A DNA stretch of 34,588 nt, from the NCBI GenBank assembly GCA_023266095.1, contig JAHFRV010000034.1, positions 1 to 34,588 of the forward strand, read 5' to 3'. Origin of the DNA: Gammaproteobacteria bacterium. GTDB lineage: Bacteria; Pseudomonadota; Gammaproteobacteria; DRLM01. Under the pieces are notes generated by a model, which saw nothing but the letters and a program-made list of their open reading frames with translations, was not told where the DNA came from and searched no databases. Shown piece by piece: positions 2 to 13,545 of the stretch. Both the position numbers and the translations under genes were made by a program. Each line of letters starts with the position of its first letter. Positions within the stretch are counted from its first letter, which is position 1.

Positions 2-3000
2 GCGCTTGCCTATAACGCCAATAACTTGTTATCCACCCTCAGCGATGCTTCGGGACAGACCACCACGTTCACCTACGGCGCGGACAACCGCATCAGCGCT
101 ATCACCGACCCGGCGGGGCGTACAGCGAGCTACCAATATGACAGCGCCGGCAACCTGGTCGCCGTCACCAACCCCGGCGGCTTTGCCACCACCTACGCCT
201 ACGACAGCAGTCACAACCCCACCAGCGTCACCGATCCGGCCGGCAAACAAACCTTCTTCACCGCCGACGCCAATGATCGCCTGGCTACTGTATCCGGCGC
301 TGGCGGCGCCAACAAGATGACTCTGGAATACGCCGTGCCCGCGGCGGACAAGATGACTATCACTGACAGCCTGGGCAACAAGACCGTCCTGACCTACGAC
401 AATTTCGCCAACGTCACCCACGCCGTAGACTCCATGCGGAACAGCACCAGCTTCACCTATGACGGCGATCTCAACCTCACCCGCGTCACCGATCCGAAGG
501 GGCGCCAGACGCTGTTGACGTATGACAGCCGGGGCAATCGGCTATCCAACACCGACGCCGCCGGCCATACGGTGAGCTTTACCTATGAGCCCCAGTTCAA
601 CCGCATGACCAGCTTGACGGATGCCAACGGCCACGTCACCGGCTTCCAATACGACACTGCGGGCAATCTGGCGGCGCAGATTTACCCCAACGGCGCGAAA
701 GAGTCCTACGGTTACGACGCCAAAGGGCAACTGACCAGCAAGACCGACCGCAAGAATCAAACTATCCACTACGCGTACAATGCCCGCGGCCTGCTCACCA
801 AGAAGACCTTCCCGGACAGCACCGCGCACGCCTTCACGTACGATAGTCGCGGCGATCTCACCGGCGCCACGGACGCGAACGGCGCCATCGTCTTCAGCTA
901 CGATGGCGCGGATCGCCTGACCAAGGTGCTCTACCCCGGAGGAGATGCCGTCTCCTATAACTACGACGCCGCCAACAACCGGACCAAGATAACCTATCCC
1001 GACGGAACAACGCTGAATTATGCCTACGACGCCCTCAATCGGCTGGTGAGCATCAGCTCCGCGGCGGGCCAGGTGGTGGCGAGCTACACCTATGACAACG
1101 CCGGCCGCGTCGTGCAGCGAAACTTGCAGAACGGCACCTACACTACCTACAGCTATGACCAGGCCAACCGCTTAACGGACCTGATCAACCGCAAGTCCAC
1201 CGCCGATATCATCTCGCGATTCGGATATAGCTATGACCCCCTGGGCAATCGCACCAGCATGACGACCTTGGCGGGGACCACGCAGTACACCTACGACGCC
1301 CTCGACCAGTTGACCAAGGTCGTCAATCCGGATAGCTCCTCGACCCGCTATGACTTCGATCCCGCCGGCAACCGTACCGCCGTCATCGGTAATCAGACGA
1401 CGAACTACAGCGCTAACATTCTCAACCAATACCTGACGGTCGGACCCGATAGTTATAGCTACGATGCCAACGGCAACCTCACCAAAAAATCGACATCCGT
1501 GGGCGACACGACCTATACCTACGACTTCGAAAATCATTTGGTGCAGGTCATCACGCCCACTGAAACGGTTCGCTACACGTACGACCCGTTTGGTCGCCGG
1601 ACCGCCAAGAGGACCTCAGTCGGCACCACCAAGTTCGTGCATGATGGCCTGCGGGTGATTATGGAAAAAGATGACGCGGGCGCGTTCGTCGCGATCTATG
1701 TCCATGGATTGGGCATCGATGAAGTGCTCGTTATGAAGCGCGGCGGGCAGAACTACTACTATGCGCAGGATGGGCTTGATAGCGTAGTCAATCTGACGGA
1801 CGCTACCCAGGTAATCACGGAATCGATCAGCTACGATGCGTACGGCGTACCGAGTCATTTGAGTACGGTCGGAAACCCCTATCTTTTTACAGGACGCGAG
1901 TATGAAGCTGAGTTAGCTCTCTATTTCTACAGAGCCAGATTCTACGATCCGTTCACCGGAAGATTTCTATCCGCTGACCCGATTGGAATCAGTGGGGGAG
2001 ATAGCAATTTCTACCGATATGTAAGTAACAGACCCACTACTTTTGTAGATCCTACTGGATTGGCGTGGGTGGGAACGACTAAGTGGTATAAGCTACCGGC
2101 GCACCGACATATTTTCTTTGACAAGCCTGTAACGATTGGTGGTCAAACATTTAATGACATAGGGTTTGCTCCTGCCTCGAATCCGTTTGGCGGGCCTGGT
2201 GGACATATCACAGGAGAAAATAGCAAATACTACAATCAAATATTGTCAGGTCTTGATGATGACCTATTGGCGAAAGCTGTCGAAGATATTAACTTCGATA
2301 AAAATTATTGCATGTTTAAGTATGATTGCACTCATTGGGAGGAACAGGTTTACAAGAGGTACAAGGAGTTGGCTGGCGACGGCGGAAGCGATCCTCGGAC
2401 CGGCGATAACGACAATTCTGCCTTTTGCAGTCTTTTTCCTCTTACCTGTCAAGAGTTGTGCACGGCGGGGCAGACGCAGTTTTGCAACGGCGGCAATCCC
2501 AGTTGTGAGACTTCCAACACCTGTGCGGGAGATCCCACATTTATCCAAATCGCGGTTGGCAACAATCCGGCGAATTCACGTGGGATCTTGTCAAAGCTGA
2601 AGCTGCCTTCCAATGAGTTAACGGCTAAGATAACCGCACCTGGCGATGGCGCACTTGTGCGCGCCACTGTTCCCATTTTCGGCCTTGGCTTCGGAGATGA
2701 TTTTAATGAGTACCGCCTGGAGTATGGGGCAGGCGACAAGCCGGAGAGCTGGACCACCATAGCCACATCCACCACGCCGCAATTGAAGGACGTTACAGGC
2801 GCCGACTTGGATGATACCGCCGACACCACCATACACGGCAACCTTGCCGATTGGGATACCGGCCTACGTAACTATATCTATCCGCCGCTCTACCCCAAGG
2901 ATCATCCCATCGATCTGAAGGGCACATACACCCTCCGTTTTGTGGTGACGGGCAAAGACGGCAAGACCGCGGAAGATCGCGTCAGCGTCACGGTGGCCGA

Positions 3001-5077
3001 CGTCATTCCCAACGCTTGGGGTGGTGAGGTCATCAGCACTGACAAGCGGCTGACACTAGTGGTACCCGAGCAAGCCATCCATGACAGCTTCCGGTTGATC
3101 GCGGCGCAGCCCGTGGAGAAATCTCCAGTGGCCTTGCCCGCGGACCGCAAGATGATCGGATCGGTGTACGAGCTGCGCGAGCCGGACGAGCGGTTTACCA
3201 AGGACGCGACGTTGGCGATGCAGCTCAGTGAGGCAGACATCACAGGTCTGACCCCGGACTCCGTCGGTATCTATGCCTATAACGACAAGACCAAGGCCTG
3301 GGAACATCTGAACTCTCGGCGGCCCGACGGCCGGTTTGAGGTTGAGACGACGATACGAACGCTTAGTCCCTACTACGCACTGATGGTGAGTGCAAAACCC
3401 GGTGAGGGTTCGGTGGCCGTCAGCGCGCGTGCCCCCAGCGCAGCTATGCAGAAGGTTGCCGCAACCAGCGCAGGCGCCGGACCGTACCTAATCAAAGAAG
3501 ACTTCGAGCAGGGTCCGGCAGGCTGGTCCAAGCGCGACAGTGATGTCGGCGCGACGCTGACGCTCGACAAGACAGCCACCTTCGACGGGTCGCAGGCCTT
3601 GAAGATCATGGATACCGATGGCGGAGGCAACTTCGCCATCAACGTTGGGGTGGCCGCCTTCGATGCCCGTGACTATCCGCTGGTGCAGTTCGACTACCGC
3701 ATTGCGGCCGGGGTCAAGACCAACTTCCTGGTGAAGGTGGCGGGACGCTGGTATGACATCGGCTTCACCGACGATGCCAAGGAACTTGAGAACAAGCGCG
3801 TCAACATCGCTCATATCGGTGATATCGCGGGCGTGATCGCGGACGGCCAATGGCATACGGCGCAGTTCAATCTTTACGACATGCTGCGGACCAAGACGGG
3901 CAACACTCAAGTCGAGACCATGATCATGGCCGACTGGGATGTGCCGGGTTATATGAAACTGACTTTCGGACACAATGCCAAGGGCGCGAGCTATTACATT
4001 GACAATTTCAGCGTCGCCCAAGAGCGTGCCGCTGGCCTGCGTTTGGATGACGATTCCGTACTGGTGGACAACTTCAACCAGAAGAAGGCCACCAATGCGC
4101 TGGGCGGTGTGACATCGGTGTTCACGGATGGGCAGCACGGTCATCTCAAGGTGGACTACGCCGCCGCAGACGCTGACGGCAAGGGTAGCGCGCTGGCGTT
4201 GAACTACGACGTCACCGCGGACAGTAGCTACGCCGGCTATGCCACCGCCTTGCCGCCGCTGGATTTGAGGGGATACCAGCTACTCACGTTTGCTTTGCGT
4301 GACTTGTCCGCCGACGAGGATATGACCCTCGGCCTCAAGGACGGCACGGGGCGCGAACACAAGGTCTCGATCCGCCGTTATGTTCAGTCGGCCCCGGTCG
4401 AGGGGTGGCAACATGTCAGCATACCGCTGGCGGCCTATACCGACCCGTTAGATTGGTCCGCCATCGCGAGTGTGAGCTTCTCCTTCGAGCATGGTCACAA
4501 CACCAAAGGCAATATGCTGCTTGATGATGTGGCGTTCCAGCGGTACTTGCTGGCGCTGCCGGTGCAAGACTTCGAAGGCAAGGACGGCCTTAACCTCCTC
4601 AGGGGCAAGAACTGGACCTTCAGCCGGGGTGCCGCGGCCGTGAACGGCGTGGAGGCGAAGGACGGTGGCAACGGCATCTACGGCATCGCTTACGGCGGTA
4701 ACATCGGCGACGTGTTCGGCTATGACAGCGGCCTCAACTTCGGCGGCTGGACCATGCAGTTGGGCGGCATAGACTGCTCGCGTTGCGGCACGTTGCGCTT
4801 CCGCATCCGCGGCGCCGAAGGCAGCGAGACGCCCAACATCTATCTCGGCGACGGCAATCTTCGCTGGCCGGTGGAGCTGGCCAAACGGGTTCAGGTGACC
4901 AAGGACTGGCAGGAGCTGGAGATACCCTTGGATGCGTACGCCGAGTACATCGATCTGACCCATCTGGAAGAGCTACAGGTGGTGTTCGAGTGGCAGAAGA
5001 TGTCGGGCACGGTGTACCTCGACGACCTGCGGTTTGGTGTTCGCCCTATTGAGATGCTTGGCCGCTCAGCGCACTGA
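2..5077 (+). CDS. YD-repeat/RHS core protein with C-terminal Ig-like and carbohydrate-binding-like modules (5' partial)
   Basis: The reading frame is open at base 2, so the N terminus lies outside the window and 1691 residues are visible. Bases 2 to about 1800 encode many YD repeats (pattern YDxxGNL or YDAxNRL, about 20 residues each), the building block of RHS shells. The RHS core follows (YDAYG, LYFYRARFYDP, GRFLSADPIG), ending at DPTGL, base 2062. Bases 2063-2365 encode a variable domain with His codons at 2102 and 2108 and a YDCTHW motif (Cys codon 2327), suggestive of a permuted papain-like fold. A six-Cys linker (about 2418-2525), an Ig-like segment (about 2610-3000), a ZU5-like segment (about 3020-3385) and three jelly-roll-like modules (about 3482-4030, 4055-4535, 4562-5050) complete it. 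RHS proteins are normally surface or secreted and end in a toxin tip, so this long tail is unusual. The stop is TGA at 5075. It could be an adhesin or polysaccharide-binding shell rather than a toxin. RHS identity is firm; function is inference. Confidence 0.9.
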   Translation, partial: ALAYNANNLLSTLSDASGQTTTFTYGADNRISAITDPAGRTASYQYDSAGNLVAVTNPGGFATTYAYDSSHNPTSVTDPAGKQTFFTADANDRLATVSGAGGANKMTLEYAVPAADKMTITDSLGNKTVLTYDNFANVTHAVDSMRNSTSFTYDGDLNLTRVTDPKGRQTLLTYDSRGNRLSNTDAAGHTVSFTYEPQFNRMTSLTDANGHVTGFQYDTAGNLAAQIYPNGAKESYGYDAKGQLTSKTDRKNQTIHYAYNARGLLTKKTFPDSTAHAFTYDSRGDLTGATDANGAIVFSYDGADRLTKVLYPGGDAVSYNYDAANNRTKITYPDGTTLNYAYDALNRLVSISSAAGQVVASYTYDNAGRVVQRNLQNGTYTTYSYDQANRLTDLINRKSTADIISRFGYSYDPLGNRTSMTTLAGTTQYTYDALDQLTKVVNPDSSSTRYDFDPAGNRTAVIGNQTTNYSANILNQYLTVGPDSYSYDANGNLTKKSTSVGDTTYTYDFENHLVQVITPTETVRYTYDPFGRRTAKRTSVGTTKFVHDGLRVIMEKDDAGAFVAIYVHGLGIDEVLVMKRGGQNYYYAQDGLDSVVNLTDATQVITESISYDAYGVPSHLSTVGNPYLFTGREYEAELALYFYRARFYDPFTGRFLSADPIGISGGDSNFYRYVSNRPTTFVDPTGLAWVGTTKWYKLPAHRHIFFDKPVTIGGQTFNDIGFAPASNPFGGPGGHITGENSKYYNQILSGLDDDLLAKAVEDINFDKNYCMFKYDCTHWEEQVYKRYKELAGDGGSDPRTGDNDNSAFCSLFPLTCQELCTAGQTQFCNGGNPSCETSNTCAGDPTFIQIAVGNNPANSRGILSKLKLPSNELTAKITAPGDGALVRATVPIFGLGFGDDFNEYRLEYGAGDKPESWTTIATSTTPQLKDVTGADLDDTADTTIHGNLADWDTGLRNYIYPPLYPKDHPIDLKGTYTLRFVVTGKDGKTAEDRVSVTVADVIPNAWGGEVISTDKRLTLVVPEQAIHDSFRLIAAQPVEKSPVALPADRKMIGSVYELREPDERFTKDATLAMQLSEADITGLTPDSVGIYAYNDKTKAWEHLNSRRPDGRFEVETTIRTLSPYYALMVSAKPGEGSVAVSARAPSAAMQKVAATSAGAGPYLIKEDFEQGPAGWSKRDSDVGATLTLDKTATFDGSQALKIMDTDGGGNFAINVGVAAFDARDYPLVQFDYRIAAGVKTNFLVKVAGRWYDIGFTDDAKELENKRVNIAHIGDIAGVIADGQWHTAQFNLYDMLRTKTGNTQVETMIMADWDVPGYMKLTFGHNAKGASYYIDNFSVAQERAAGLRLDDDSVLVDNFNQKKATNALGGVTSVFTDGQHGHLKVDYAAADADGKGSALALNYDVTADSSYAGYATALPPLDLRGYQLLTFALRDLSADEDMTLGLKDGTGREHKVSIRRYVQSAPVEGWQHVSIPLAAYTDPLDWSAIASVSFSFEHGHNTKGNMLLDDVAFQRYLLALPVQDFEGKDGLNLLRGKNWTFSRGAAAVNGVEAKDGGNGIYGIAYGGNIGDVFGYDSGLNFGGWTMQLGGIDCSRCGTLRFRIRGAEGSETPNIYLGDGNLRWPVELAKRVQVTKDWQELEIPLDAYAEYIDLTHLEELQVVFEWQKMSGTVYLDDLRFGVRPIEMLGRSAH

Positions 5078-5267: not shown

Positions 5268-6806
5268 TCATTTCATTGATGCCAGCACAAACGCCGGCAA
5301 CAACAACCAGGCGAACTCGTCGAACCAGCCAAACACCCATCCCTCAGCCGCATACATGCCGACGAAGATCACACACATAATGATGTGAACGGCGCGAACG
5401 GTGATGGAAGAGCGCGGCAACCCCACAGCCTGATCACGGTGATATTTCGGGGTTCGGAACCAATCGAGATTGAGGTGGAACAGACCCTTGATATTGCCTG
5501 TCACATAGGTTGGGATAACGCTCCAGGCATACCAAACCATCATGGGCAGGTGGAGCACATCACGGTAGCGTCGTGTCTTGGCGAGGATCATCACCAAGGG
5601 TTCGATGATATTGGACAAGAGGCAGAAATAGAGCAGGATCACGAAAGGTAGCTTCACCTGCCCGATGACGAACAAATAGAATTCGACCGGATAACTGTTC
5701 CAGGCGAGGATCAGCCAGAGGATGCTGATTATGCCGATGGCGATGGCCAAACCTGTGAGTAGGGTGGTTGTGAAATAAGCGTTCTGTCGGAATGCGGAGA
5801 GCTTTTCCACGACCGTCAAGCGGGATGAGGTGATGATGGGCCAGAAATAGTCTCTGAGCGCACGGGCGGAACCTGAGGCCCAGCGTTCTTGTTGGCGGCG
5901 ATAGTGGTCATAGGTAAACGGGACCTCGCCGTAGTTCACCACTGAGCCGTCGTACACGCCCTTCCACCCGGCAAGCCAGAGGCGGTCGGTCAAGTCCAGA
6001 TCCTCGGTCAGATGTCCGGGCGTGAAGCCGCCGACCGCGGCCACGGCGTCGAGACGGAATAAGGTGCAGCACCCGGAGAAAAGCGTCGGATGGCCGAGCC
6101 GCTGGCGTCCTTCGAAATCCACGTAATAGCAGCCTTCCTCTACGAAGGACACATACTTCTGGAACAGATTCATGCCCTGTGGGAAGGATATGCGTTTGGT
6201 CTGGACGAAGGCGGTGGTGTCGTTTGCCTCCAACACACCGAGCGTGCGCTCCAGCGCGTCGGATTGAGGGTGCCAGTCCGCATCCAGCAAATACATCAGC
6301 TCGATGTCCCGGCTGTGTAGATACTCTTGGACCTTACGTAGGCTACCTGCCTTGTAGCCCACGTTCTTGGGACGATGGAATAGCACGAAGCCTGGGGATT
6401 CCCATATCTCTATGGGTTCGCACGCGCCTGCGCGTCGCCCAAGTTCCATTTCTTGGATGAAGGGATGGCTATCCCTCAGTACGCAGCCCCGCTCCTTCGC
6501 GAGGGCTCTTAACGATTCGACGACCGTGGGATCAGTGGAATCGTCCGCCAGGACGATGAGCTTGTTCCGGTAGGTCAATGCTTCGCAGGCCTTGAGTGTC
6601 TTCTCGAGTACGTGTTCTTCGTTGAAGGAGACGATCACCACGGCGATGCGACGTCCGGAGTGAGGGACGCGTTTGATAACCAGGCTGCGCAGACTCCCCC
6701 AGCCATAGAGGAAATTGAAGAAAGCGAAAAACGAAAACGACACAAGCAACATGCCCTGGATGGCGAGTAAGAGGACGGCAAACCATGGCCATTCCGTTAT
6801 GGTCAT
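5268..6806 (-). CDS. Membrane glycosyltransferase family 2, cellulose/curdlan-synthase-like
   Basis: This is a processive GT2-type enzyme of 512 residues, likely polymerising a beta-glucan from a nucleotide sugar at the inner membrane. Visible motifs in order: an N-terminal membrane segment (residues 8-35), the VSFNE strand, DDS (88-90), DAD (175-177), TED (267-269) and the QxxRW signature as QQERW (305-309), then four or five C-terminal membrane helices. There is no PilZ domain, unlike BcsA. I chose ATG 6806 because it overlaps the upstream stop as ATGA and has GGGAG five bases before it; an ATG at 6830 has no ribosome site. It is the last gene of a four-gene operon and converges on the RHS gene. 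Its neighbour at 7462-8355 is GH17-like, which favours a beta-1,3 or mixed glucan over cellulose. The product linkage cannot be read from sequence. Confidence 0.88.
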   Translation of the reverse strand: MTITEWPWFAVLLLAIQGMLLVSFSFFAFFNFLYGWGSLRSLVIKRVPHSGRRIAVVIVSFNEEHVLEKTLKACEALTYRNKLIVLADDSTDPTVVESLRALAKERGCVLRDSHPFIQEMELGRRAGACEPIEIWESPGFVLFHRPKNVGYKAGSLRKVQEYLHSRDIELMYLLDADWHPQSDALERTLGVLEANDTTAFVQTKRISFPQGMNLFQKYVSFVEEGCYYVDFEGRQRLGHPTLFSGCCTLFRLDAVAAVGGFTPGHLTEDLDLTDRLWLAGWKGVYDGSVVNYGEVPFTYDHYRRQQERWASGSARALRDYFWPIITSSRLTVVEKLSAFRQNAYFTTTLLTGLAIAIGIISILWLILAWNSYPVEFYLFVIGQVKLPFVILLYFCLLSNIIEPLVMILAKTRRYRDVLHLPMMVWYAWSVIPTYVTGNIKGLFHLNLDWFRTPKYHRDQAVGLPRSSITVRAVHIIMCVIFVGMYAAEGWVFGWFDEFAWLLLPAFVLASMK

Positions 6807-7465
6807 GGCTGCTCCCGACGATGAACCCATCGGGAAAGGATGGCCCCAGCAACGAGGATCAGGAGCGCCGTGACGATGGGCAACAGGCTTCTATAGCTAC
6901 TGCCACCCAACAGCGCTCGGGCTGACGCTGCGCTAGGCGGATCGATGGTCGGGGCTGGACCGAACCAATAAAATCCGAGGCCTTGCGTCGTATAGGCCAC
7001 GACATCCAGCGGATGAGGGCCGTCATCGATATCGAGTACGGCGCGCAGGGGTTGGGGCTGATGAGCGAGCCATTGACCGTCTCTTAGCTCGAGCAGTGGG
7101 GAGTCGGCGTAGTGTTTGTCCAAGTAAATCGTTGCTCGCGTGACCCTGGTGGTGAGCCCATCGGGGGCGACGATCATCAGGGATCGGGTTCCATCCGACT
7201 TTTCCAACTCCCGCAGGATGAGATGTGCATGGTTCACGCCCGGGGCGGATATGGCGATAAGCCGCACCGATCCCGTGCGAGGTTGGCCAGTAAGCAACCC
7301 GTGCGTTCCAGTTAGCTCGACCCACTGTCGCGCGCCCGTATCACGGCCACCTGAACTGCTGAAACCACCTAGGCCGGGAACGGCGCTGCCAGACGCGGTT
7401 GCATCGCGGGCCTCTACCAACAGCGAGACCGTGAGGACACACAGCATTAGAATGCAGTGCATCAT
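6803..7465 (-). CDS. Secreted or membrane-anchored protein of unknown function in the glucan operon
   Basis: The protein has 220 residues and I do not recognise the family. It begins with a hydrophobic signal-like stretch (residues 1-24, MMHCILMLCVLTV and onward). A soluble, probably periplasmic region with beta-rich character follows. It ends in a transmembrane helix (SLLPIVTALLILVAGAIL) and a basic tail, RWVHRREQP. The topology is therefore periplasmic domain with a C-terminal anchor. The start is ATG 7465, which overlaps the GH17-like stop as ATGA, with AGGA ten bases upstream; an earlier in-frame ATG at 7537 would intrude 76 bases into the upstream gene. Its own stop overlaps the GT2 start. 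Position between a glucanase and a synthase suggests an accessory role in polymer export or remodelling; that is inference from context only. Confidence 0.75.
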   Translation of the reverse strand: MMHCILMLCVLTVSLLVEARDATASGSAVPGLGGFSSSGGRDTGARQWVELTGTHGLLTGQPRTGSVRLIAISAPGVNHAHLILRELEKSDGTRSLMIVAPDGLTTRVTRATIYLDKHYADSPLLELRDGQWLAHQPQPLRAVLDIDDGPHPLDVVAYTTQGLGFYWFGPAPTIDPPSAASARALLGGSSYRSLLPIVTALLILVAGAILSRWVHRREQP

Positions 7466-8355
7466 GGTGCGGTATTCCTGGTCATGAACCAGCGGGCCGC
7501 TATTTTCGGCGACCCATCCGAGCGATACAAACCCCAATGGGCCTCGACGTCGCCTCGGCTAAGGGCCGCGGGTTTCCAAGCTTGGTCGTAGGCCTCGAAG
7601 TAGAAAAAGGAAATGCGGGTCGATTCGAGTGCCTGGAAGAACTTGAGCTGTGTTTCTTCATCGGCACCCGGCACGCCCGCGCTGGGAAATCCCGCCTCCT
7701 TGAGAATCACCGGACGGCCGCTGGTGGAGGTCAGGAAATCGTAACGCGCGAGTATCCAATCAACCGCCTGGGTGGGATCCGCCTGCGCGGCCCAGAACGG
7801 GTGCGCGAGGGGAAAGAGCCAATCGGAGTGGGTCAGCAACCACGCCCGATAAGGGCCCTTCAGATAGCTGTCGATGGGTTCGGAGGTCGTCACGGGTCGT
7901 CCTGTCAGTTTGCGGAGTTCGGCCATCCTCGCAGCCAATTCTTCAGGTTGATAGCGGATGCCCAGCCCCTCATTCCCCAAGCAATAGCCATCGACAAAAT
8001 CCCGTTGCGCGAGGGCGTGTTGCCATTCCTCCCGATCGCGCGGATCCCAGATGCCCATGATAATCGTGCCATCGAAACCGACTTCGCGCGCCAGCTTCGG
8101 AATCAAACCGAGTGTCCCCGCCGCGCTGTAGGTTACCAGTCCCCTCACGCCCGCGGACCTCAACGCATGCAGATCTTGCAAAATTTGGCTAATGGTCTGG
8201 GCAGAGGGCTGCGCCGGAGAGAACATGCGGGGATTGTAAGCGACGGCAGGGGGGATGTGTTTCAGCGTAATGCGCACGTCTGCTCCAAACGCTGTGTGGC
8301 TCGCCACGAGCAGCACCAGCAATGACGCCACAAACTTCATAAGGCGGAATATCAC
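7462..8355 (-). CDS. GH17-like beta-1,3-glucanase or glucan transglycosylase
   Basis: The protein has 297 residues: a signal peptide (about 1-24, ending near AFG-A) and one TIM-barrel-sized domain. GH17 hallmarks are visible: YNPRMFSP near the N terminus, the acid/base motif GNEG with Glu129, and the nucleophile motif KEAGFPS with Glu220, which parallels E-x-GWPS of plant and fungal GH17 enzymes; FFYFEAYDQAWK and EAHWGLY follow. GH17 domains in bacteria such as the NdvB/NdvC-type systems act on beta-1,3 glucans made by a partner GT2, and the same pairing occurs here. The start is GTG 8355 (GTGA overlap with the upstream stop, AGGAG eleven bases before); ATG 8340 is an alternative that would keep most of the signal peptide. 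Whether it hydrolyses or transfers is not decidable here. Confidence 0.85.
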   Translation of the reverse strand: MIFRLMKFVASLLVLLVASHTAFGADVRITLKHIPPAVAYNPRMFSPAQPSAQTISQILQDLHALRSAGVRGLVTYSAAGTLGLIPKLAREVGFDGTIIMGIWDPRDREEWQHALAQRDFVDGYCLGNEGLGIRYQPEELAARMAELRKLTGRPVTTSEPIDSYLKGPYRAWLLTHSDWLFPLAHPFWAAQADPTQAVDWILARYDFLTSTSGRPVILKEAGFPSAGVPGADEETQLKFFQALESTRISFFYFEAYDQAWKPAALSRGDVEAHWGLYRSDGSPKIAARWFMTRNTAP

Positions 8356-9110
8356 TGGGCGTCGTTCTCCTCTGGCACCTTCTCAGCGGAAGACTCTGTG
8401 ATGCCGCATGATGATATATACCCAGTGAAGAATAACGCAGCGGTAGCACGCTTTTCCAAGTGCCACGCCAAGAATCCGGCTATAAGTGTCAGTGCCAACA
8501 ATAGCGCGGCTACCAGCCTGACGTCGCCGGCGAAATACGCCTGGCCGGGTGTTAATAGCATCATGATCAGCAATAGCAGGTATCCAACCACCAGTACTCC
8601 GCTCATGGGTTGCTCGGCCCGCAGCTTGGCAATGCGGGCCGCGGCGGTTGGACATTTGAGGTGAACGAAGTCATATAACAAGTCGATGCGAGCGTTACTG
8701 TAAGGGGATTTTTTCAGTTTATCCAAAAATGTGAATATCCTGCTGTCGCCAGCAAGACAACTGTTACTCGTATCCCTATTGGTTTGGTCAGGTTTAACGA
8801 CCATGGCAAGAAATGAATCGAGAGATGACTCGCCATAACTCGCTAACATCAAACGATAGATGCGAAACCAAATGCCACCCAGTAATGAACCAATAAGATA
8901 CGATATGAGCAGGTTGCCGAGTAATACGAACGCAAATGGTGCGGCAGTGTGACCAGGACTAAGAGCGCCTGTAGACCATGTTGTGACGACTTGTACGGTG
9001 ACGTCTGGCCCCAGTAGGAGCAGGGCGGTGAGGGATACCAAACCGGCACCGGGGATAATGCGGCCAATGAGGTCATAGAAGAGCTGCGGAATAATGACGC
9101 TAATGTTCAT
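8352..9110 (-). CDS. Polytopic membrane protein of unknown function, first gene of the glucan operon
   Basis: The protein has 252 residues. About four membrane helices are visible: roughly residues 20-45 and 58-83, then a cytoplasmic loop of about 100 residues, then two helices near the C terminus (VLVVGYLLLLIMMLL and LVAALLLALTLIAGF). The N terminus carries FYDLIGRIIPG, an amphipathic segment I have seen as a recurrent start of bacterial unknown membrane proteins but cannot name. The start is ATG 9110 with AGGTG six bases upstream; the frame stays open to an ATG at 9374, but that extension is polar, unlike a coding N terminus, and lacks a ribosome site. By hand count bases 8701-8880 hold 77 G+C of 180 (43%), lower than the flanking genes, hinting at acquisition. 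Its stop overlaps the GH17-like start. Confidence 0.7.
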   Translation of the reverse strand: MNISVIIPQLFYDLIGRIIPGAGLVSLTALLLLGPDVTVQVVTTWSTGALSPGHTAAPFAFVLLGNLLISYLIGSLLGGIWFRIYRLMLASYGESSLDSFLAMVVKPDQTNRDTSNSCLAGDSRIFTFLDKLKKSPYSNARIDLLYDFVHLKCPTAAARIAKLRAEQPMSGVLVVGYLLLLIMMLLTPGQAYFAGDVRLVAALLLALTLIAGFLAWHLEKRATAALFFTGYISSCGITESSAEKVPEENDAQ

Positions 9111-9526
9111 CCGTTGCACCTGTCCCTGGAGCGTGGCTGGCACAGTGATGTAGATCCATGCGTAGATGCGCGAGTTGATCTGTCGGTTTGACCCACGATA
9201 CTTATCGTGTCCCAATCGAGCTTTTGCGCCAGTAGGAACCGACCGCCATGAAGCACACCATAAATCGTCCTGCGGCATGCAAAGACAAATATCACGCGAT
9301 AAAATAACTGGCAAGAATTTTGAGGTATTGCTGGCGTGTTCTTTCAATGGTATTTCTGGCCGAAGTAGTTTCATGGGGTGTCACTGAAGAGCCAACTGAC
9401 GCGGCCGATGACGAACGGACGTATCACGCGCTCCACCCGATTATTATCAATGCAAATACGGGCTCGCGGTTGATTGCCATGCGCTGTTACCGCGCGGCCT
9501 CGGCGCGGCGGTCAATCGCCGGATGA
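9111..9526. other. Intergenic region with the presumed promoter of the glucan operon
   Basis: These 416 bases lie between the first gene of the minus-strand operon and the 3' end of the acetyltransferase gene. No convincing gene is seen. The best minus-strand promoter candidate is TTGCCA (9314-9309), a 17-base spacer and TATTTG (9291-9286). The -10 match is poor, so this is weak. The transcript leader would be about 170 bases. The part nearest 9527 is GC-rich and resembles the chromosomal background. Confidence 0.35.
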
Positions 9527-12205
9527 CTACAGCAGTTTGCTGATGCGTTTGACCGCGGGATCATCTGGGCTGCTGGTGGCGGTGAATCCCAGGCTAGTCA
9601 CCAAGCGCAGCATGGTCTGATTGGTGGCGAGCACCTCGCCTTCCATACGCTTCAAGCCTTTGGCGCGCGCCACGTCGATCAAGCATGTCATGAGCTTATG
9701 GCCTATCCCCTTGTGTTGCCACTGGTCCGCTATCACCAGGGCGAATTCGCAGGATTCCGCATCGGGATTGGTGGCGTAACGGGCGATGCCGAGTTCCAGC
9801 TCCTTGCCGTCTATGCTGGTGACGGCCATTAAGGCCATTTCCCTGTCGTAGTCGATTTGAGTGAAACGTGCCAGCAGGGTGGGAGTGAGTTCCTGCAGCG
9901 CCTCCATGAAGCGGAAGTATTTGGTGTCACTGGACAGTCCACACACGAAATTCTGTTCGAGTTCGGCATCTTCAGGCCGGATCGGGCGGATGGTGATGTC
10001 GGTGGCATCGGGCAGTTGCCAGAGGGTCTCGAGATGCGACGGGTAGGGGTGGATCGCCATATGTGCATACGGTTCGGCGGTGGCGGAGCGGTACGCCACG
10101 ACGACGCGCGCATCCGCGACCAAGACGCCGTTCTCGTCTAACAGGAGTGGATTGATGTCCATCTCCTTCAGCCACGGCAGTTCACATGCCATTTCGGATA
10201 CACGCAGCAGCACACTCAGCAGCGCCTCCCTGTCCACTGGCGGCATGTGGCGGAACTGGCCGAGCATTTTAGCCGCGCGGGTGCGACTGATGAGGTTGCT
10301 GGCCAGATAGCGATTGAGGGGCGGCAGCTCCACGGCGCGGTCCCCCAACACCTCGACGGCGACACCGCCCATGCCCAGGGTAATCACTGGCCCGAACACG
10401 GCATCCGTCGTCACCCCTATCATGAGTTCACGGCCGTTTGGCTTCACTATCATCGGTTCGATGGCGATGCCATCGATGCGCGCATCGGGCCGGTTGTGGT
10501 GCACGGCGGCGATGATTTCCTGATAGGCGGCGCGCACTGCCTGGGCATTGCTCAGGCTCAGCTTCACCCCGCCGGCATCGGATTTATGGGTGAGATCCGG
10601 TGAACTCACCTTCATCGCCACCGGAAATCCGAACTGCTCCGCCAAGAGCAACGCCTCGTTGGGCGTATGGGCCACGACTGTTTTGGTCACCGGGATGTGA
10701 AATGCCGCCAGCAAGGACTTGGATTCCATTTCACTTAATAGGTAACGGCGTTCAGCCAGGGCGTTCTCGATCAACAGCCGCGCGCCCTCTAGGTCGGGCC
10801 GCTCATGATGTGAAAGGGGGCCGGGTGTTTGCAGCAACATCTGCTGGTTGTGAACGTAGGCCGAGATAAAGGAAAACACCTCGACCGCCGGTTCTGGCGT
10901 GCGGAAGTTGGGGATGTGGGCGCGGGTGAAGGCGGCGCGCGCCTCGGCGACCTGCGCATCGCCCATCCAGCAGGCCAATAACGGTTTGCCCGATTGGTGG
11001 GCAATCTCGATCGCGATTTCGGCCACCTCCAGTGGTTTGGTCATGGCTTGCGGCGTGAGGATGACCAGCGCGCCGTCGACACCCGGGTCTCCCATGCAGG
11101 CGGTCAGCGCCTGGCGATAACGTTCTGCATCGGCATCACCGATGATGTCGACGGGATTGCGCTTGGACCAGGTGTAAGGCAATACCGCGTTCAGCGCCTC
11201 CAGGGTTGCGCTGGAGAGGGTGGCGAGTTCGATGCCGAGATCGGCGGCGCGGTCGGCCGCCATCACCGCCGGCCCGCCACCATTGGTGACGATGGCAAGG
11301 CGATTGCCGCGTGGGCGAAAACCGCAAGAAAGCGCCTGGGCCGCGGTGAACAATTGCGCCACCGTCATCACCCGCACCGCACCGGCGCGGCGCAAGCTGG
11401 CGTCGAAGACGTCATCCGCCACCACCATGGCATCGGTATGGGAGAGGGCGGCCTTCTTGCCCGCCTCGTGCCGGCCGACCTTGACCACGATCACCGGTTT
11501 GATGCGTGCGGCGGCGCGCAGGGCGCTCATGAAGTTACGCGCGTTACGGATGCCCTCGATGTAAAGCAGGACGGCTTCGGTGTGCCTGTCCGACACCAAA
11601 TAATCGAGAACCTCGCCGAAATCCACATCGGCTGAATCCCCCAGTGACACCACGCTGGAGAAGCCGATCTCGTTGGACTGTGCCCAGTCAAGAATGGCGG
11701 TGCACAAGGCACCGGACTGCGACACCAGGGCAAGCTTGCCCGGCAGCGCGCCGCCCTTGCTGAAGGTGGCATTGAGCCCGATGCTGGGGCGCATCAACCC
11801 CAGGCAATTGGGGCCGATCAACCGCATGCCATAGCGGCGAGACGCTTCCAGTAGCACCTGTTGCAGTGATGCGCCATGGGGGCCTATCGCAGCAAATCCC
11901 GCCGACAAAATCACGGCGGCACGTACCCCCTGTTTGCCGCAGGCCTCGATAATATCGGGAATCGTGGCGGCCGGCGTGGCAATGACGACGAGATCGATCC
12001 GCTCGCCAATTTGATCTATCGAAGCAAACGCGGGCTGTCCCTGAATTTCTGTGTGCTTTGGGTTGACCGCATAGAATTTACCCTGATAGCCGCCCATGAG
12101 CAGATTGGCGAAAATGATCCCGCCGACCGAGTCCGGGCGGTTACTGGCGCCGATCACCGCGATAGAGCGTGGAGAAAAGAGTGGACTGAGGTAGTGTTGG
12201 CTCAT
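9527..12205 (-). CDS. pat: Pat/YfiQ-type protein lysine acetyltransferase (acyl-CoA synthetase-like plus GNAT)
   Basis: This 892-residue protein has the full Pat architecture: a CoA-binding Rossmann domain (residues 5-130, SIAVIGAS), succinyl-CoA-ligase-like domains (about 130-450), an ATP-grasp domain (about 470-700, with ITLGMGGVAVE) and a C-terminal GNAT domain (about 735-892, acetyl-CoA loop QHKGIG). Pat enzymes acetylate lysines, classically the catalytic lysine of acetyl-CoA synthetase. At the position of the phosphohistidine of ADP-forming acyl-CoA synthetases it keeps His256 (SHTDAM), where E. coli YfiQ, as I recall it, has Asn. The start is ATG 12205, matching the family N terminus, with no clear ribosome site. 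It is divergent from an HDAC-like gene 96 bases away. An active ADP-forming ligase fused to GNAT is the main alternative. Confidence 0.88.
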   Translation of the reverse strand: MSQHYLSPLFSPRSIAVIGASNRPDSVGGIIFANLLMGGYQGKFYAVNPKHTEIQGQPAFASIDQIGERIDLVVIATPAATIPDIIEACGKQGVRAAVILSAGFAAIGPHGASLQQVLLEASRRYGMRLIGPNCLGLMRPSIGLNATFSKGGALPGKLALVSQSGALCTAILDWAQSNEIGFSSVVSLGDSADVDFGEVLDYLVSDRHTEAVLLYIEGIRNARNFMSALRAAARIKPVIVVKVGRHEAGKKAALSHTDAMVVADDVFDASLRRAGAVRVMTVAQLFTAAQALSCGFRPRGNRLAIVTNGGGPAVMAADRAADLGIELATLSSATLEALNAVLPYTWSKRNPVDIIGDADAERYRQALTACMGDPGVDGALVILTPQAMTKPLEVAEIAIEIAHQSGKPLLACWMGDAQVAEARAAFTRAHIPNFRTPEPAVEVFSFISAYVHNQQMLLQTPGPLSHHERPDLEGARLLIENALAERRYLLSEMESKSLLAAFHIPVTKTVVAHTPNEALLLAEQFGFPVAMKVSSPDLTHKSDAGGVKLSLSNAQAVRAAYQEIIAAVHHNRPDARIDGIAIEPMIVKPNGRELMIGVTTDAVFGPVITLGMGGVAVEVLGDRAVELPPLNRYLASNLISRTRAAKMLGQFRHMPPVDREALLSVLLRVSEMACELPWLKEMDINPLLLDENGVLVADARVVVAYRSATAEPYAHMAIHPYPSHLETLWQLPDATDITIRPIRPEDAELEQNFVCGLSSDTKYFRFMEALQELTPTLLARFTQIDYDREMALMAVTSIDGKELELGIARYATNPDAESCEFALVIADQWQHKGIGHKLMTCLIDVARAKGLKRMEGEVLATNQTMLRLVTSLGFTATSSPDDPAVKRISKLL

Positions 12206-13225: not shown

Positions 13226-13545
13226 ATAACGCAACTTCCACCGCACCGGTCGCGGCGGCATATCGATGCGCGACGTTCATCACCTGCCAGACCTTCGTCA
13301 AATCGACGATGCCACGAATAAACTTGGTAAGCATCTCTCTTCGGCTGCGTTTAGATCTTCGTGACCAAGCGCGCCTACCCGCGCAGGGCGGGGTTGAGCA
13401 ATGCATCTGACGCAGAGCATCACCCGCTTGTAAGGTGATTTACCTGGGCAATGCCGGCGAATCACTCAAGAGCGTGATTCGCACATCGCCGCGGCACTTT
13501 CTGAAGTAAAATACCCGTTTTGATTAATAAGGCCCATCCCTTCTC
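13226..13545. other. Intergenic region upstream of truA
   Basis: These 320 bases hold no convincing gene; the short frames on both strands have no recognisable homology. Near its right end are two successive hairpins (listed separately) and TAAAAT (13507-13512), a possible -10 box for truA without a good -35. Confidence 0.4.
13419..13482. repeat. Two tandem hairpins sharing an ATCAC/GTGAT stem
   Basis: ATCACC (13419-13424) pairs with GGTGAT (13434-13439) over a nine-base loop. GCGAATCAC (13457-13465) pairs perfectly with GTGATTCGC (13474-13482) over an eight-base loop. No T-run follows, so this is not a classical terminator. It could be a protein-binding site, an mRNA structure in the truA leader or a decayed palindromic repeat. 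Confidence 0.6.

Follow-up and report, generated by a model that had tools for sequence, protein, structure and literature searches.

A GT2 synthase with a GH partner is an already known kind of system. NdvB-type GH17-GT2 fusions have been proposed to be cyclic beta-1,3-glucan synthases, and the published model has their GH17 domain, which is periplasmic, act on the glycan chain that the GT2 domain produces (PMC10237404). As far as the part of PMC10514313 drawn on here goes, the group 4 osmoregulated periplasmic glucans provide a parallel to this model, and Bradyrhizobium NdvC has been hypothesised to be a beta-1,6-glucan synthase. The window analysed here, one entire contig of 34,588 bases from a 3.3-Mb genome, holds an operon of four genes, designated A to D, whose probable role is to produce and trim a sugar polymer, either of the envelope or secreted.

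All four genes lie on the minus strand in the order A-B-C-D. Gene A (8352-9110) encodes a 252-aa membrane protein with four predicted transmembrane (TM) segments, at residues 14-32, 59-77, 169-187, and 197-215; gene B (7462-8355) has a GTG start and encodes a 297-aa secreted GH17-like protein with a signal peptide and no further TM segment; gene C (6803-7465) encodes 220 residues with an N-terminal signal peptide and a C-terminal TM segment; and gene D (5268-6806) encodes a GT2 synthase of the processive type, 512 aa long, with a TM segment at the N-terminus and a TM block at the C-terminus. These topologies are all predictions. Each junction is a 4-bp overlap, GTGA for A/B and ATGA for both B/C and C/D. 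Such overlaps are commonplace in this genome, occurring at trpB/trpA and ispD/ispF within the same window, and they are therefore unremarkable as such: they indicate an operon, nothing beyond that. Reading the sequence directly, Shine-Dalgarno-like stretches are found upstream of each start, including GAGGAG ahead of the GTG of gene B, AGGA ahead of gene C, and GGGAG ahead of gene D. A codon model was trained on the genes neighbouring the operon and used to score six frames per gene; the annotated frame was the best of six for A, B, C, and D, and an upstream extension of A to position 9374 had a poor coding score. The same model found codon usage to be atypical in A and C, and the GC content of gene A is 51%, against about 61-64% in the core genes of the window. 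Scans for promoters and terminators gave results no better than those from shuffled sequence.

Gene D matches Pfam PF13632 (Glyco_trans_2_3) at 72 bits, its matches to the NCBIfam CelA and PgaC models fall far under the cut-offs, and its closest solved structures in the PDB are those of the bacterial cellulose synthase BcsA (5ej1, E 1e-11). On alignment, the DD, KAG, DAD, TED, and QQERW motifs are all intact; the DAD (DxD, metal/UDP) is encoded at 6276-6284, the TED (catalytic base) at 6000-6008, and the QQERW (QxxRW acceptor site) at 5880-5894. In addition, FRTPK (5445-5459) sits where the gating-loop FxVTxK of BcsA sits, the NdvB form being FFRTPK. Synthases of the cellulose, curdlan, and mixed-linkage subfamilies are reported to have QxPH/Q and FxVTxK without exception (PMC6821405), whereas D has QTKR and WFRTPK at the respective positions. 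All NdvB proteins formed one clade in a GT2-domain tree (support 100/99), and D fell outside it on a long branch, weakly closer to GT2 proteins that are unassigned; its scores were 91 bits against other GT2 proteins and up to 49 bits against any NdvB. Searches of 398 phylum genomes and 185 class genomes turned up no close relative of D: the best match (E 5e-26) was 27% identical, and the genes adjoining its best sampled relatives differ from those adjoining D. A motif-guided pattern search of the collection, in which the other rows of the alignment were synthetic and made solely to steer the patterns, returned one generic match of 25%. A phage origin was considered and rejected, D having only weak, generic glycosyltransferase matches in PHROG and A-C none of note.

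The score of B against Pfam PF00332 (20.1 bits) is under the gathering cut-off of 28.2, which the NdvB of the same genome itself barely passes at 28.3 bits. Despite the sub-threshold score, we consider the GH17 homology of B, as judged by sequence comparison, to be secure because B matches NdvB proteins at E about 1e-22 and the Rhizomucor GH17 glucanosyltransferase (PDB 4wtp) at E 6e-10, the latter match covering the barrel's second half. B corresponds to a full-length GH17 module, and matches to it at E < 1e-6 occur in 63 of the 398 phylum genomes, the genome of the window being counted, and mostly lie within frames of 850-1000 aa; those examined are GH17-GT2 fusions. Two glutamates of B align with residues invariant in 35/35 GH17 relatives: Glu129 in LGNEGL (7969-7971), the predicted acid/base, and Glu220 in KEAGFPSAG (7696-7698), the predicted nucleophile. 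The latter aligns with the E of ISETGWPSAG in 4wtp, which has been replaced by A in the related chain 4wtr. The alignment of the 35 relatives has 42 columns with conservation of 94% or more, and B retains 28 of them. Seven columns invariant in 35/35 are changed in B (R74V, N111W, E114A, E189A, W223F, E267R, and G271E), namely the R of VRTYS, the N and E before the acid/base, the E of PxWE, the W of GWP, and the E and G of EGxVG. Note that the comparison set was gathered using B itself and is mostly of NdvB type, so a subgroup sharing the changes in B could exist elsewhere. These comparisons suggest that in B the retaining-glycosidase machinery is kept and some of the site around it has changed, and a beta-1,3-glucan specificity therefore cannot be assumed. 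B could not be placed in a GH17 tree, where it had a very long branch, and a search of the genome-contig collection with B gave no match. Genes of similar size do occur in tandem: pairs of GH17-like genes, encoding about 300 aa each, are present on a Vibrio fortis plasmid (L056 6923-8735) and at three further loci (L034, L035, and L036). The annotated Vibrio locus lies beside arylsulfatase and sulfatase-maturase genes and has no GT2 alongside; it is possibly a laminarin-type degradation locus.

Neither A nor C has a credible match in Pfam, NCBIfam, PADLOC, PHROG, or the PDB. Among 369 genomes of the class, A was found only as the copy in the window itself; C has no credible match in 319 phylum genomes, the matches obtained (E 4e-4 to 0.009) being short and attributable to chance. 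Both are absent from the plasmids searched, A is also absent from the phages searched, and viral contigs contained no match to C, A, or D. One-query scans of a collection detect only close relatives, so A and C may have homologues in other phyla or among close relatives that were not sampled. C is predicted to have, between its signal peptide and C-terminal TM segment, a beta-rich middle (a low-confidence prediction), and to end in a basic tail. AlphaFold single-sequence models of A and C were of too low a quality to search by fold (mean pLDDT 51.7 and 44.9, respectively). A defence function for either protein was discarded, there being no PADLOC match. The first-pass annotation of this DNA had described a four-gene, overlapping operon with intact GT2 and GH17 catalytic motifs and two uncharacterised membrane-associated proteins; the coordinates, strand, and three 4-bp overlaps bear out the operon, the motifs hold in the alignments of D and B, and the description of A and C stands, neither having a library match nor a homologue in the genomes searched, whether beside GT2/GH17 genes or away from them.

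The same genome carries, elsewhere, a separate 996-aa NdvB-like GH17-GT2 fusion (L033 7353-10343; G000:C44) between a gene for a ChrA-type transporter and a pyruvate-kinase-like gene, and in both congeners the GH17 matches are in frames similar in size to NdvB (958 and 939 aa). Gene A, the tail of the neighbouring RHS gene, and the upstream acyl-CoA synthetase/acetyltransferase gene are in neither congener, nor was D found in G002, the sole congener searched for it. DNA homology between G002 and the window starts at position 13500, just before truA, with different genes beyond; the operon thus sits in a variable region that the congener available for comparison lacks, and window position 13500, left of truA, is likely the boundary of that region. 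The contig of the other congener, G001, ends at that same point near truA. No second copy of the operon was found among the genomes and collections searched. Within the window, on the minus strand at 9527-12205, an 892-aa fusion of an acetate-CoA ligase-like protein (CoA-binding, ATP-grasp) with a GNAT acetyltransferase is absent from the five order-mates examined. Separately, the Escherichia fergusonii IncI conjugative plasmid NZ_CP057682.1 carries a tight run of genes (L061 148-5113) in the order wecB, a YaiO-type outer-membrane barrel, an unknown, an acyltransferase, an unknown of 355 aa, and a GT2; the run has the look of a mobile exopolysaccharide operon of the synthase type.

With a single copy known, we infer the function of the operon from gene anatomy, which provides what a synthase-dependent polysaccharide operon would need: a processive GT2, an enzyme predicted to act on the product in the periplasm, and putative accessory proteins of the envelope. 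With confidence a little above even, we interpret the operon as a lineage-specific, synthase-dependent polysaccharide system. D would polymerise a nucleotide sugar at the cytoplasmic face, the likeliest substrate being that of glucose (UDP-glucose) or of a hexose related to it, and would thread the growing chain through its own membrane channel; secreted B would then cut or transglycosylate the emerging chain in the periplasm, performing as a separate protein the role thought to belong to the periplasmic GH17 domain of NdvB. C, predicted to be periplasmic with one membrane anchor, and A, a predicted four-helix membrane protein, are each probably accessory subunits of the synthase/export complex. 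The predicted export signals of B and C and the predicted membrane location of A and D support this scheme, and polymer synthesis followed by periplasmic remodelling is its well supported part. Against the scheme are the single known copy, the seven GH17 invariants lost from B, and the absence of QxPH/Q from D, and the structure predictions are too poor to back roles for A and C. The favoured product is a beta-1,3- or mixed beta-glucan, a tentative choice that falls somewhat short of even confidence; beta-1,3-glucan itself is a lean only.

Adjacent to the operon and convergent with it, 191 bp away, is an RHS/YD-repeat gene (2-5077, plus strand) whose 5' end lies beyond the contig; we do not assign it to the system. 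In place of a recognisable toxin domain, its C-terminal part has galactose-binding/CBM30/CBM11-like domains. The first-pass annotation had read the whole as a locus for synthesis, remodelling, and display of a beta-1,3-glucan, with the RHS protein as its glycan-binding surface partner. GH17 enzymes do act on beta-1,3-glucans (PMC10237404), and the tail of the RHS protein matches CBM30 (E 9e-10) and Exop_C. What survives of it is that the GT2 and the GH17-like enzyme share one operon with translational coupling, but the beta-1,3 assignment is weakened because B has a divergent site with seven invariants lost, D is not within the NdvB clade, and D lacks QxPH/Q. The idea of display fares worse: the RHS gene and the operon are on opposite strands with adjacency as their sole connection, both are absent from order-mates, and no second locus links the two. 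We regard the complete reading as doubtful. A further departure from described glucan synthesis, in which the operon represents an undescribed class of synthase complex, with a GT2 outside the glucan subfamilies, a GH17-like site rebuilt for some polymer that is not beta-1,3-glucan, and A and C as dedicated subunits from two new protein families, is rather unlikely.

That B and D arose by fission of an NdvB-type cyclic-glucan synthase might be suspected from the fact that the two domain types, and their genetic order (GH17, then GT2), are those of NdvB, and B is closest to NdvB GH17 domains. However, the 100/99 clade of NdvB GT2 domains excludes D, for which other GT2 proteins give higher scores (91 bits) than any NdvB does (no more than 49); gene C sits between the two supposed halves; and B is on a very long branch. 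A full NdvB is encoded elsewhere in the same genome, and on that count together with the GT2 tree we rejected fission, which we consider highly improbable. Also unlikely is a role for D as a glycosyltransferase that forms no polymer and instead decorates a lipid or other membrane-bound acceptor, with B trimming or recycling the glycan: the TM segments of D are limited to one at the N-terminus and a short block at the C-terminus, and the sampled GT2 proteins that match it best have no assigned product, but QxxRW, TED, KAG, and an RTPK loop typify processive synthases (PMC10237404, PMC6821405). Atypical codon use in A and C, the lower GC content of A, and absence from the congeners would all fit a recently acquired island that is decaying and has no present function; yet four intact frames with exact overlaps, together with the retention of catalytic residues in B and D, make decay improbable.

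Our preferred reading, a synthase-dependent polysaccharide system, thus involves familiar enzymes in an arrangement that we did not find in the literature searched: the genes are separate, the GH17 site is altered, and two orphan proteins are present as putative accessories. If correct, the coupling of a GT2 polymerase to a GH17 remodeller, known from the NdvB fusions, has also been assembled from separate genes that differ in ancestry and that bring two new accessory proteins. A separable two-enzyme system would then allow a gene-by-gene test of the question posed by NdvB, namely whether, and how, the GH17 module acts on the product of the GT2.

D resembles the beta-glucan synthases BcsA, CrdS, and BgsA in having DD, KAG, DxD, TED, QxxRW, and channel-type TM segments, but it is shorter than they are, has QTKR and WFRTPK rather than QxPH/Q and FxVTxK, has no PilZ domain, and has no BcsB, PgaB, or HlyD-type partner adjoining it. 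B shares both catalytic glutamates with Rhizomucor Bgt17A, a GH17 beta-1,3-glucanosyltransferase (PDB 4wtp), but, unlike enzymes of that type, it is under the Pfam gathering score and several otherwise invariant residues are replaced. The Bradyrhizobium NdvB/NdvC system for beta-1,3;1,6 cyclic glucans combines GT2 and GH17 by the same logic and yields periplasmic glucans, whereas the part of its description drawn on here (PMC10514313) contains nothing resembling A or C. Closest of all are the NdvB-type "Orphan" GH17-GT2 fusions, exemplified by Pseudomonas NdvB (PMC10237404), which likewise combine GH17 in the periplasm with GT2 in the membrane; the catalytic Glu motifs in B are the same, and FxRTPK is at the gating-loop position in D. 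In those proteins, GH17 and GT2 form one chain of about 800-1000 aa, whereas here they are encoded by separate genes of 297 and 512 aa with C between them. The operon would work like an NdvB system and yet is not a member of that group, because there is no fusion, D lies outside the NdvB GT2 clade, and B lacks seven residues that are invariant there.
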